Shown here piece after piece: positions 36,894 to 41,003 of a stretch of DNA of 64,000 nucleotides. The stretch lies in the NCBI GenBank assembly GCA_025060295.1, contig JANXCH010000006.1, positions 69,257 to 133,256 of the forward strand. Direction: 5' to 3'. Each line of letters begins with the position of its first letter. Positions within the stretch are counted from its first letter, which is position 1. This stretch comes from Dehalococcoidia bacterium (GTDB lineage: Bacteria; Chloroflexota; Dehalococcoidia; Lucifugimonadales; HRBIN23). The notes beneath the pieces were generated by a model. The model made no database searches and was not told where the DNA came from. It was given only the letters and a program-made list of their open reading frames with translations. The translations under genes were made by a program, and so were the position numbers.

Positions 36894-36922
36894 TTGCCTG
36901 AGGCGTCCCTGCACGCTACCAT
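36894..36922 (+). promoter_or_regulatory. Promoter of the two-component system
   Basis: TTGCCT (36894-36899), 17 bp, TACCAT (36917-36922), the same class as 27726 and 31393. It argues that the kinase starts at ATG 36942 rather than at the TTG at 36894, which is itself the -35 box. Confidence 0.65.
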
Positions 36923-36941
36923 AGGACAGTCGGAGCAGCGG

Positions 36942-38378
36942 ATGGAGACAGTTGCGGCGTCTTTAGGGGGAAGCCTGGCGGCTCTCACCGAGCCTGCCTT
37001 GCTGGACTGGGGAGAGGGGGCCCTGCGCCGCCGGGTGGAGGAGGTGCTGGCCCGTCTGACAGGGGCGCGCAGAGTGTGGTTCGTCGCCCCAGGGGACTCC
37101 CCTCCGGCAGACGCTTACGCCCTCACCTTAGAGGTGCACGGACAGGCGCTGGGTTGGCTGGTTCTGGAGGGGGTGAGTGCCCTTGCCCCCTCTATTCGGG
37201 AGGAGGTTCGGGCAGTGGCGCTGGTGGGGCTTGCCCTTCTACGGGCCGTCCAGGCTCTGCACCGGGAAGAGCGTCTGCAGCGCGAGGCGCGCGCCCGCCA
37301 GCGTCGCCTTCAGGCTATCATAGACGCCATCCCCGAGGCCCTGGTCATCGTGCGGGCACCCACGGCCCACATCACTATGGCTAATCGCTGGGCACGCCAC
37401 ATGCTGGGAACAACGGAGGATGGGCGTCTTTCCATCGGCTCACTTTATGACCTACGCCTTTTCACGCCCGAGGGGGTGCCTCTGCCCTTTGACCAACGCC
37501 CCGTTACCCGCTGTTGGCGGGGGGAGGTGTGTGAGGGGTTGGAGGTGCTGTTGGAGGTGCGGCCAGGGCAGCGCATCCCTCTGCTGGTGAACGCTGCCCC
37601 TTTGACCAACGAGCAGGGGCAGGTTACCGGGGCGGTGGTGGTGTGGCAGGACATCAGCCGCCTCAAGCGGATGGAGCGCTTGCGCTCGGACTTCCTGTCC
37701 ATGGTGAGCCACGACCTGCGCACACCCCTGGCCAGCATTAAGACCGCTATCTCCGCTTTGCGCACCGCCCCCGCTCTGGAGCCTGCGGCGACGGCCGAGT
37801 TGTTCCAGGCCATAGACGAGGAGACGGAGCGCCTGGTGCGCATGGTCAACGACTTGCTGGACCTGTCTCGCCTGGAGGCCGGGGCCTTGCCCATGGAGCC
37901 CGAGGAGTGTGGACTGGGGGACATCGTCCAGCAGGCGGTGCGGGAGGTGGAGCGGTCGGGACTGACGCAGGGGCGGACCCTGCAGGTAGACATCCCTCCC
38001 ACCCTTCCGTCCCTATGGGCCGATGTCTCCCATATCCAGCGGGTGGTGGTGAACCTCCTGGTGAATGCTTTGGCGCATACACCGGCCTCTAGCCCTGTGC
38101 GCCTCTCGGCATATCACGATGACCGCCGCAACGAGGTCGTGGTGTGTGTGGCCGATCAAGGGCCGGGCATCCCTCCCGAAGACCTCCCCCACCTGTTTGA
38201 GCGTTTCTACCGTTCCCCCCACAAAAGCGGTCGGGGGTATGGCATCGGGCTGGGGTTGGCCATCTGCAAGGCGTTGGTAGAACTGCACGGGGGGCGTATT
38301 TGGGCTGAGAGCGCCTTAGGGCAGGGTTCTACCTTTTATTTTGCCCTTCCCCTTGCCAAAACGGATGCCCAGAGGTAA
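36942..38378 (+). CDS. Sensor histidine kinase with PAS domain
   Basis: A 478-residue kinase without membrane segments. An N-terminal GAF-like region (about 1-105) precedes a coiled stretch and a PAS domain ([16 protein letters not shown]). The HisKA motif is [15 protein letters not shown] with the phosphoacceptor His, and the ATPase has [31 protein letters not shown] and [18 protein letters not shown]. It resembles the cytoplasmic part of PhoR/KdpD-like kinases. ATG 36942 has GGAG seven bases upstream. The partner response regulator starts 3 bp later. Confidence 0.9.
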
Positions 38379-38380
38379 CC

Positions 38381-39103
38381 GTGCAGTCTCCCAAGCCGTA
38401 TCGCATCCTGGTGGTGGAGGACGACGCCCGCCTATGCCGTTTCCTGGCAGACCTGTTGCGTCGCCAGGACTATCAGGTGGAGAGCGCCACGGACGGCCTG
38501 CAGGCCCTCCAACAGGCCGAGGTTTTTCAGCCCCATCTGGTCCTACTGGATTTGCTTTTGCCGAATCTGAACGGCTTGGAGGTCCTCCACCGCCTGCGCC
38601 AGTGGAGCAACGCCGTGGTGCTGGTTCTCTCTGGGCGGGGGGAAGAGGCCCTTAAGGTGCGGGCGCTCGACCTGGGGGCCGACGATTACCTGACCAAGCC
38701 CTTCAGTCCGCCAGAACTTTTGGCCCGTGTGCGGGCGCTCCTGCGCCGAGCAGAGCACTCCCCATCACTGACCACTCCTCACCCTGTTCTCACGTTCGGG
38801 GATCTCACTATAGACCTCTCGGCCCGTATCGTGAAGCGCAGCGGCCAGGAGGTGCCCCTCACCAGGACCGAGTTCGCCCTCCTGCAAGTCCTCGTGGCCA
38901 ATGCGGGGAAGGTGCTCACCCATAAGGAACTGCTCCAGCAGGTGTGGGGACCTGAATACGGTCAGGAGACCGAATACCTACGCACCTTCATTAAGCAACT
39001 GCGGCGCAAACTGGAGCCTGATCCCGCTCGCCCCCGCTACATTGTGACCCAAGCAGGGGTGGGGTATCGCTTTCAGCCCCCAGGCAACGCCGAGAGCAGG
39101 TGA
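38381..39103 (+). CDS. OmpR/PhoB-family response regulator
   Basis: A 240-residue transcription factor with a receiver (VVEDD acidic pair, phospho-acceptor in LLLDLLLPN, LTKPFSPPEL lysine) and a winged-helix DNA-binding domain (TRTEFALLQVLVANAGKVLTHKELLQQVWG, then YLRTFIKQLRRKLEPDP). Its layout is close to KdpE/PhoB. The start is GTG, directly after the kinase. Regulators of this family bind 11-bp direct repeats, and such an array begins 11 bp after its stop codon. Confidence 0.92.
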   Translation: MQSPKPYRILVVEDDARLCRFLADLLRRQDYQVESATDGLQALQQAEVFQPHLVLLDLLLPNLNGLEVLHRLRQWSNAVVLVLSGRGEEALKVRALDLGADDYLTKPFSPPELLARVRALLRRAEHSPSLTTPHPVLTFGDLTIDLSARIVKRSGQEVPLTRTEFALLQVLVANAGKVLTHKELLQQVWGPEYGQETEYLRTFIKQLRRKLEPDPARPRYIVTQAGVGYRFQPPGNAESR

Positions 39104-39113
39104 AACGATTTTC

Positions 39114-39177
39114 TTCACGCTTTTTTCACACCGGCGCTCATTTCTTTCACGCCCGTTTCACACGCCTGGATTACCTT
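39114..39177 (+). promoter_or_regulatory. PHO-box-like direct-repeat array with a downstream -10 box
   Basis: Four TTCACrC units start at 39114, 39125, 39146 and 39157: two pairs with 11-bp pitch, separated by 21 bp. In each pair the first is TTCACGC and the second TTCACAC. A TACCTT (39172-39177) follows the last unit by 8 bp with no -35 hexamer. This is the layout of an activator-dependent promoter for the receiver gene. Streptomyces PhoP uses GTTCACC-type 11-bp repeats; the regulator here is inferred to be the adjacent one. Confidence 0.7.
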
Positions 39178-39213
39178 AGGTTGTGGTTGAGGGTAGTCAG
39201 AGGAGGGACAGGT

Positions 39214-39624
39214 ATGGGGCTCCCCCTCACGGTTCTCCTGGTGGAGGACGACCCTACTCTGCTCCGCACTTTGCAGGTGGCCCTGGGGGCCCGGGGGTAC
39301 CGGGTTCTCACGGCGCAGTGTGTGCGCGAAGGGCTGGCTGTGGTGATGGGAGCGACGAGTGTGGATGCGATGGTGATAGACCTGCGCCTGCCCGACGGGT
39401 TGGGATGGGACTTGGTGGAGCGCCTACGCCAAATTGGGCGTATACCCCCTCCCGCCGTGCTCATTAGTGCCTCTACCCTTTCCCGACGAGAGGTGCGGGA
39501 GCACGGTCTGGAGGGCTACCTGCCCAAACCGTTCAGTGTGGATCATTTGGTGGAGATGGTCTCCCTGGCCCTGAAAAGGGCCGGTCGGGGACTACCCTCC
39601 ACCCGCAAGGAGGTGCTACTATGA
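39214..39624 (+). CDS. Stand-alone receiver-domain response regulator
   Basis: A 136-residue single receiver domain, CheY-like, with the acidic pair in LLVEDDP, the phosphorylatable Asp in MVIDLRLPDG and the conserved Lys in YLPKPF. No output domain follows. ATG 39214 has AGAGGAGGG upstream; the frame is open back to 39100, but that stretch holds the repeat array. Expected roles are phosphate sink or protein-protein signalling with the upstream kinase. It overlaps the zinc-ribbon gene as ATGA. Confidence 0.85.
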   Translation: MGLPLTVLLVEDDPTLLRTLQVALGARGYRVLTAQCVREGLAVVMGATSVDAMVIDLRLPDGLGWDLVERLRQIGRIPPPAVLISASTLSRREVREHGLEGYLPKPFSVDHLVEMVSLALKRAGRGLPSTRKEVLL

Positions 39625-39812
39625 TCTGGTTCCGCGCATGCCCACGCTGCCATGGGGATCTGCGGGAGGTGGTGGATCAGTGGGGTAGAACGGTGCTCTG
39701 CCTGCAGTGCGGGTATGAGCTGACCCCCGCTCAGGAGGCCCGTTTGCGCTTGGAGACCGTCGCGCGCAAGGGGCAGGGGACGCATCGGGACCTGGTAGCC
39801 ACGGGGCGATAA
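39621..39812 (+). CDS. Small zinc-ribbon protein
   Basis: A 63-residue protein with CPRC at 7-10 and CLQC at 27-30, a zinc ribbon of the rubredoxin-like knuckle type. AAGGAGGT lies upstream and the ATG overlaps the stop of the receiver gene, so it is translationally coupled to it. The rest is basic with no other domain. It could bind nucleic acid or a partner protein; no specific function is known. Confidence 0.7.
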   Translation: MIWFRACPRCHGDLREVVDQWGRTVLCLQCGYELTPAQEARLRLETVARKGQGTHRDLVATGR

Positions 39813-39836: not shown

Positions 39837-40736
39837 GTGAAGACCATTCTTGTCGCCTTGGACGGCTCCCCTATTGCCGAGCAGGTCCTTCCCTGGGCGC
39901 GTCTTTTGGGGGAACGGCTCCCCGCTCGGTTAATCCTGTTCACGGCGGTGCCTCCCCTAACCCCAGAGGTCCGACAGGCCTATGCTCACCTGCGCTTGCC
40001 CCTAGAGGCGGCGGTGCATGTGGCCCGGGCGGAGGAGTACCTTTCCCTGACCGCCCGCCCCCTGCGGGAGGTGGGTTTGGAGGTGTTCATCAAGGCTCAG
40101 GAGGGCGAGCCGGTTAGCCAAATCCTTGCCTATGCCCAAGAGGTACATGCCGATTTCATCGCCCTGACCACCCATGGACGCACCGGGTTGACCCGCCTGA
40201 TGCTGGGGAGTGTGGCCGACCGTCTCGTGCGCACTGCGTCTATCCCCCTTCTGTTGGTGAAGGCCCGTCCTCCCACGGCGCGGCCGACACCCCCCCAGGT
40301 GCAGAGCGTCCTTGTCCCCTTGGATGGCTCCCCTTTGGCGGAGACGGTTCTGCCCCTGGCCCTCGACCTGGCCACCGCTTTACAGACGGAGGTGATTCTG
40401 GCGCGCGTGGTCAGCACCCCTGCCGTGGTCAGCATGTGGCCCGAGGCGTCCTCGTACGTGACGGAGACTCTGGAGGCGTTGCGCCAGGAGGCTTTGGCTT
40501 ATCTCTCCACCCATCAGACGCGTCTGCAGGCTCAGGGGCATAGGGTGCGGGTGGAGGTGCGGGAGGGCCAACCAGCGGAGGAGCTGGTGGCTCTGGCCCG
40601 CCGCCATAAGTCCCTGGTGGTCATGGCAACCCACGGCTACGGGGGGGCGCGGCGTTTGCTCCTGGGGAGCGTGGCCCAGCGGGTCGTGCTCACCCTGGGG
40701 GGGCCGGTTGTGGTCGTGCGCCCCAAGGAGGCCTAG
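39837..40736 (+). CDS. Tandem universal stress protein (two UspA domains)
   Basis: A 299-residue protein made of two Usp domains (about 1-147 and 155-297). Each begins with ILVALDGSPIAEQVLPWA or VLVPLDGSPLAETVLPLA and ends with the ATP-binding pattern: THGRTGLTRLMLGSVADRLV in the first and THGYGGARRLLLGSVAQRVV in the second. It is therefore an ATP-binding type. The GTG start has GGGAGG upstream. It follows the zinc-ribbon gene by 24 bp in the two-component cluster, which suggests stress-dependent expression. Confidence 0.9.
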   Translation: MKTILVALDGSPIAEQVLPWARLLGERLPARLILFTAVPPLTPEVRQAYAHLRLPLEAAVHVARAEEYLSLTARPLREVGLEVFIKAQEGEPVSQILAYAQEVHADFIALTTHGRTGLTRLMLGSVADRLVRTASIPLLLVKARPPTARPTPPQVQSVLVPLDGSPLAETVLPLALDLATALQTEVILARVVSTPAVVSMWPEASSYVTETLEALRQEALAYLSTHQTRLQAQGHRVRVEVREGQPAEELVALARRHKSLVVMATHGYGGARRLLLGSVAQRVVLTLGGPVVVVRPKEA

Positions 40737-40739
40737 CCT

Positions 40740-41003
40740 GTGGAGTTCCTGGTGCACGTGCTGGTCAGTTTGAAGCCTACGGTCAATGACCCTCAAGGTG
40801 TCACGGTGCAGAGTGCCCTGCAAGCCCTGGGCTTTTCAGGCGTGCGGCGGGTGCGGGTGGGCAAATACCTGGAGGTGCACCTGCAGGCGGAGAGCCTCCA
40901 GGATGCCCAGCGCCAGGCGGAGGAGATGTGCCGGCGCCTTCTGGCCAACCCCGTGATAGAGCAGTTCCAGTTCACGGTGCGCGAGGCCAGTCCTGCTGCC
41001 TAG
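40740..41003 (+). CDS. purS: Phosphoribosylformylglycinamidine synthase subunit PurS (orphan)
   Basis: An 87-residue protein with the PurS layout: [35 protein letters not shown] and [13 protein letters not shown]. PurS bridges PurL and the glutaminase PurQ in de novo purine synthesis. Here purQ and purL are absent from the neighbourhood; the gene starts with GTG 3 bp after the Usp gene and ends overlapping the convergent molybdoenzyme by four bases. The position is odd, the identity is not. Confidence 0.85.

Follow-up and report, generated by a model that had tools for sequence, protein, structure and literature searches.

The locus examined here raises the question of what reads a set of four short direct repeats placed between a response regulator gene and a group of genes that includes a universal stress protein, and what these repeats control. 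It lies in a stretch of 64,000 nucleotides of Dehalococcoidia DNA (the window). The four copies, all on the forward strand, were read directly as TTCACGC (39114..39120), TTCACAC (39125..39131), TTCACGC (39146..39152) and TTCACAC (39157..39163), with start-to-start distances of 11, 21 and 11 bp, the two pairs starting 32 bp (about three helical turns) apart. Eight bp past the last copy lies TACCTT (39172..39177, forward strand), a predicted -10 element on the basis of its sequence and of its fixed place in 44 of 69 related arrays; copy 3 overlaps the -35 position and copy 4 falls inside the -35/-10 spacer. This direct reading confirms the arrangement reported in an earlier note on this DNA.

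The two genes before the array and the four behind it are on the forward strand. Upstream, a PAS-HisKA-HATPase histidine kinase (36894..38378, Pfam), the presumed partner of the regulator, is followed by a KdpE-like response regulator of the OmpR family (38381..39103, Pfam Response_reg and Trans_reg_C), the presumed array binder, whose stop codon ends at 39103, leaving 10 bp to copy 1. Downstream are genes encoding a receiver-only response regulator (39214..39624, Pfam; presumed first gene of the operon), a CxxC zinc-ribbon protein of 63 aa (39621..39812; its homologues within the class lie in part 3' of arrays), a tandem universal stress protein (39837..40736, Pfam Usp) and PurS (40740..41003, Pfam PurS; presumed last gene). 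A possible role for the receiver-only protein is that of a phosphate sink or of a feedback element. A gap of 110 bp separates the regulator gene from the receiver-only gene; a GTG frame (39100-39624) crosses it, and the corresponding frame of the congener G001 begins at an ATG located 3' of the array, which places the array in intergenic DNA. The zinc ribbon (39621-39812) is frequent in the class, and in G003, G048 and G461 it lies behind arrays; it was tried as a marker of the locus and dropped as too divergent and widespread for tracing it.

From the frequency of TTCAC in the window, 7e-8 exact arrays would be expected per window and 2e-6 per genome. Chance or low-complexity repeats, a reading to which the T-rich spacers lend something and nothing else does, are thus of negligible probability, and are refuted by the conservation of the array across classes (see below). 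The genome scan for TTCACRC-N4-TTCACRC proposed in the earlier note rendered zero-mismatch matches at these two places only. With up to 2 mismatches the pair pattern matched 20 times in the window's own genome (G000), against 20 for the reversed control, so that no wider regulon is visible in it; the two single-mismatch matches elsewhere in this genome fall inside genes, and a half-site near another promoter (L038) was set aside as a single weak pair. The window's own genome therefore has one array, and the "regulon" there is this promoter alone.

The relatives of this organism show that the array is not a peculiarity of one genome. In the congener, the sequences CTCACGC, TTCACGC, TTCACGC and TTCACGG follow each other at 11/21/11, with TACACT 8 bp later; its contig starts inside the regulator gene, whose product is 85% identical over 75 residues to the window regulator. 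A whole-array search (four boxes at fixed spacing, up to 3 mismatches) covered 247 genomes of the order and was positive in 71; the reversed control was positive in 7, one of which matched through a repeat. Many genomes of the order hold several arrays, up to the 11 of G494, four of them mismatch-free. When the distance between copies 2 and 3 was left free, 21 bp rendered 34 matches and any other distance 7 at most, once a match at 49 bp recurring in f34 genomes, presumed to be a conserved-gene artefact (probably rRNA), had been collapsed. In one genome, G023, the reversed control pattern matched 57 and 44 times, which was ascribed to some repeat family in that genome, and these matches were left out. 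In the wider phylum, at up to 2 mismatches, arrays were found in 23 of 400 genomes against a single control match, the most conspicuous beyond the order being those of G114 (six arrays) and of family f140, which is identified as Ktedonobacteria because its member G750 shows the same match, in the same position, as G604 (the genome of Ktedonobacter locus L155). Loss of the 11-bp pitch in relatives had been named in advance as grounds for abandoning the proposal; both the congener and the order-wide search keep it.

To look at the promoter, 82 arrays selected by TTCAC alone were aligned, and -10 elements were counted in the 69 with up to 2 mismatches from outside the window's genus. The motif TANNNT occurs exactly 8 bp past copy 4 in 44 of these 69 arrays and at 9 bp in 5 more, other positions being at background level (binomial tail 1e-85, a figure that ignores kinship among the arrays); about a third of the arrays have no clear TANNNT at this fixed place. 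At 16-18 bp spacing, hexamers in the set of related arrays were no nearer to TTGACA than random ones, the -35 place being occupied by copy 3. The -10 without a -35 described for the window is thus borne out, and the layout is, judging from the DNA, that of class II activation. Since copies 3 and 4 cover both the -35 place and the spacer, the array could alternatively be the operator of a repressor that blocks RNA polymerase; this is quite unlikely, given that there is no -35 beneath the array to be blocked (matches no better than random) and that the -10 sits at a fixed helical position, as predicted for class II activation. Overall, there is good support for an activated, class II-like promoter to which the neighbouring regulator would bind.

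The regulator had been described as PhoB-type, and the array as an analogue of the PHO box. In the PhoB pho box, 7-4-7 direct repeats replace the -35, and in this respect it is like the window array; it differs in sequence, in regulator subfamily and in target genes. Were the regulator a PhoB, the array would be part of a phosphate regulon, for which the similarity of the 7-4-7 TTCAC repeats to the Streptomyces GTTCACC and the PhoB-like location of the site upstream of a -10 could be adduced. The protein itself points elsewhere. Pfam identifies Response_reg and Trans_reg_C domains (E 2e-28 and 4e-26), the receiver and winged helix that define the OmpR/PhoB family, but in NCBIfam the best model is KdpE with 226 bits (under its equivalog cut-off of 325), whereas PhoB reaches 175.5 bits (cut-off 296), and KdpE structures rank first in a PDB search, so that the PhoB-type assignment does not hold. 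Moreover, the only good array of this genome is at the window locus and not at phoU, which is on a different contig (C21); a scan of about 40 genes 3' of arrays in other genomes met no phosphate gene, and there the arrays stand before genes for stress response and respiration, not for phosphate or potassium. The phosphate reading is for these reasons very improbable. Nor was a kdpA/KdpA found in G000 (96% complete), which leaves no kdpFABC operon for the regulator to control.

Does the adjoining regulator read the array? A same-strand array lies directly 3' of a regulator gene of this kind in ten genomes of the window's class (G000, G001, G003, G056, G431, G453, G461, G480, G495 and G154) and, among Ktedonobacteria, in about ten more. 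A scan of named genomes with the regulator found mostly ordinary KdpE/OmpR homologues. In a regulator tree the array-linked proteins split into two separate clades: clade A, with the window regulator, those of G056 and G344/G527 and those of Ktedonobacteria, has the recognition helix LRTF (the region in the window regulator, within 38381..39103 on the forward strand, reads EYLRTFIKQLRRKL), while most members of clade B have VRSF, so that an (L/V)R(T/S)F helix and TTCAC arrays are common to both. Among regulators with an R(T/S)F helix, 18 of 23 have an adjacent array, against 2 of 68 for all other parsed helices, one of these two being probably due to chance; the sample was drawn partly via array loci, which may inflate adjacency and does not dictate the helix. 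Near clade A stands a clade with an LWAY helix (G030, G039, G431, G452), and in these genomes arrays read TTCAGG instead, in an unchanged layout and with the -10 in roughly the usual position; G431 carries both box types together with both regulator types, being one of several genomes with two candidate regulators. This concerted change of helix and box is the strongest in silico sign that the regulator reads the array, and together with the recurrent adjacency it supports the earlier suggestion that the neighbouring regulator acts on it. A different regulator, of the OmpR family or of another fold, could instead bind the array, the KdpE-like adjacency being secondary: there are several OmpR-family genes in the window's genome, and in family f41 (G494 and its relatives) arrays are frequent and lie away from the candidate regulator, which has an RTY helix. 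Set against this are the repetition of the adjacency in two regulator clades and two classes and the joint change of helix and box, and we regard another binder as unlikely. The array is probably read by the adjoining KdpE-like protein.

TTCAGG arrays at 11/21/11 (sometimes 20) with their own -10 were seen in G030, G039, G431, G442 and G452 (loci L328-L345), where they precede genes for Usp, a multicopper-type protein, an Fe-S protein, an ABC permease and sensors. Array-like repeats of TTGAC (L109, 56 bp past the regulator), TTTAC (L140) and TTTATG (L005, in G002) were also found after related regulators in which V replaces T/S in the helix; as further box types they are suggestive only.

The reading of the array as operator in an activator-dependent promoter, bound by the KdpE-like regulator encoded upstream and driving the receiver-zinc ribbon-Usp-purS genes as one member of a Chloroflexota regulon, is in our judgement highly probable. 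We infer that the phosphorylated regulator would bind as two tandem dimers, one on copies 1 and 2 and the other on copies 3 and 4, both on one face of the helix. The downstream dimer would, from the geometry of the array, substitute for the -35 and hold RNA polymerase at the -10 located 8 bp past copy 4, while the upstream dimer would act via a neighbouring contact, probably such as that with the alpha C-terminal domain. The promoter would thereby drive the four genes downstream, control of which by the array had already been proposed and is supported. The succession regulator-array-receiver is found again in G001, G056, G453, G461 and Ktedonobacteria, and that of receiver and zinc ribbon in G461.

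The first genes after arrays in other genomes encode Usp, GNAT, CBS-pair, Hsp20 and hemerythrin proteins, a cytochrome d1-type protein, alanine dehydrogenase, molybdopterin oxidoreductases, Rieske and LigB dioxygenases, a sigma-70 factor, receiver-only proteins and zinc ribbons. By a rough count in those genomes of the order that were searched for Usp, a usp gene lies behind ~8 of ~46 arrays, with 1-14 Usp domain matches per genome. The regulon is probably one of redox, low-oxygen or general stress response, and the recurrence of one layout across many Chloroflexota ahead of genes for stress and respiration suggests a common stress/low-oxygen response that has gone unrecognised.

As to the signal, no haem GAF could be recognised by a GAF search of the N-terminus of the window kinase, unlike DosS, which has one. 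A GAF domain is present in clade B proteins and, within clade A, in the kinase of G056. That of the G003 regulator matches DosS GAF-A with E 3e-45, the FPxxHP region of the haem ligand being part of the match, and the regulators of G003, G453, G461 and G480 and the kinase of G056 all have the HP motif; in DosS GAF-A the haem ligand is His149 (PMC4082495). The clade B members examined are single-chain GAF-PAS-HisKA-HATPase-receiver-wHTH proteins (L351, 2579-5023; L354, 2746-5241; L350, 2743-5949; L349, 2631-4955), uniting sensor kinase and DNA-binding output, and the GAF of the L351 protein (G003) is closest to mycobacterial DosS. The regulon of DosS-DosR and of the Streptomyces OsdKR includes Usp, a heat-shock protein, a nitrate-reductase-like enzyme, hemerythrin and a sigma factor (PMC5069765), target classes that overlap with those of the array-linked genes. 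However, OsdR/DevR sites are palindromic, whereas those of the arrays are direct repeats, and the output domain of DosR is NarL-type, whereas that of the window regulator is an OmpR-type Trans_reg_C. It could be the case that Chloroflexota have a phylum-wide stress/low-oxygen regulon which is DosR/OsdR-like and separately built, with a DosS-type haem GAF and a KdpE-like output reading the 11/21/11 tetrad, two clades having one box in common and a third having moved to TTCAGG; we hold this wider proposal tentatively, at somewhat short of an even chance.

Direct repeats with an 11-bp pitch are bound by both Mycobacterium tuberculosis PhoP and Escherichia coli KdpE (PMC4832192, PMC3264566). The KdpE operator consists of 6-bp direct repeats, TTTATA and TTTACA, with 5 bp between them (PMC3264566); KdpE is the closest OmpR-family regulator by sequence and shares the pitch, but it uses two half-sites instead of four and its target is a K+ pump, in contrast to a genome with no kdpA. 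PhoP recognises TCACAGC-N4-TCACAGC as a tandem dimer, the 7-bp repeats being separated by a spacer of strictly 4 bp, a strictness for which the same study gives the reason, and sites with three or four motifs outbind those with two (PMC4832192); the protein is more distant from the window regulator (152 bits versus 216 for KdpE in the structure search), and the four-motif sites tested with it are continuous with 4-bp spacers, whereas the window array is 11/21/11. The OmpR-family redox regulator ArcA of E. coli binds 2-5 direct repeats spaced mostly at 11 bp and in some cases at 22 bp (PMC3798270), a variable architecture that differs from the fixed 11/21/11 with its -10 at one distance.

Taken singly, the parts of this system belong to known kinds. 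The fixed tetrad with its linked -10, and the stress and respiration regulon that goes with it in Chloroflexota, appear to be undescribed in the literature searched, in which subscription journals were thinly covered. A promoter signature of 64 bp, searchable and predictive of targets, would provide a readable regulatory code for a largely uncultured phylum, one in which the recognition helix of a regulator is linked with the DNA box that it reads. There is also a suggestion that the actinobacterial hypoxia/dormancy gene set has an equivalent governed by another output domain.

Other features were seen near arrays. Big, secreted-looking paralogous proteins are encoded behind perfect or near-perfect arrays at L229, L233, L235, L238 and L239 (in G488, G558, G512 and G494), the one that was scanned having no Pfam match. 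At the window locus, purS (40740-41003) closes an operon of stress genes, and a gene for a sulfite-oxidase-like molybdoprotein adjoins it on the opposite strand.
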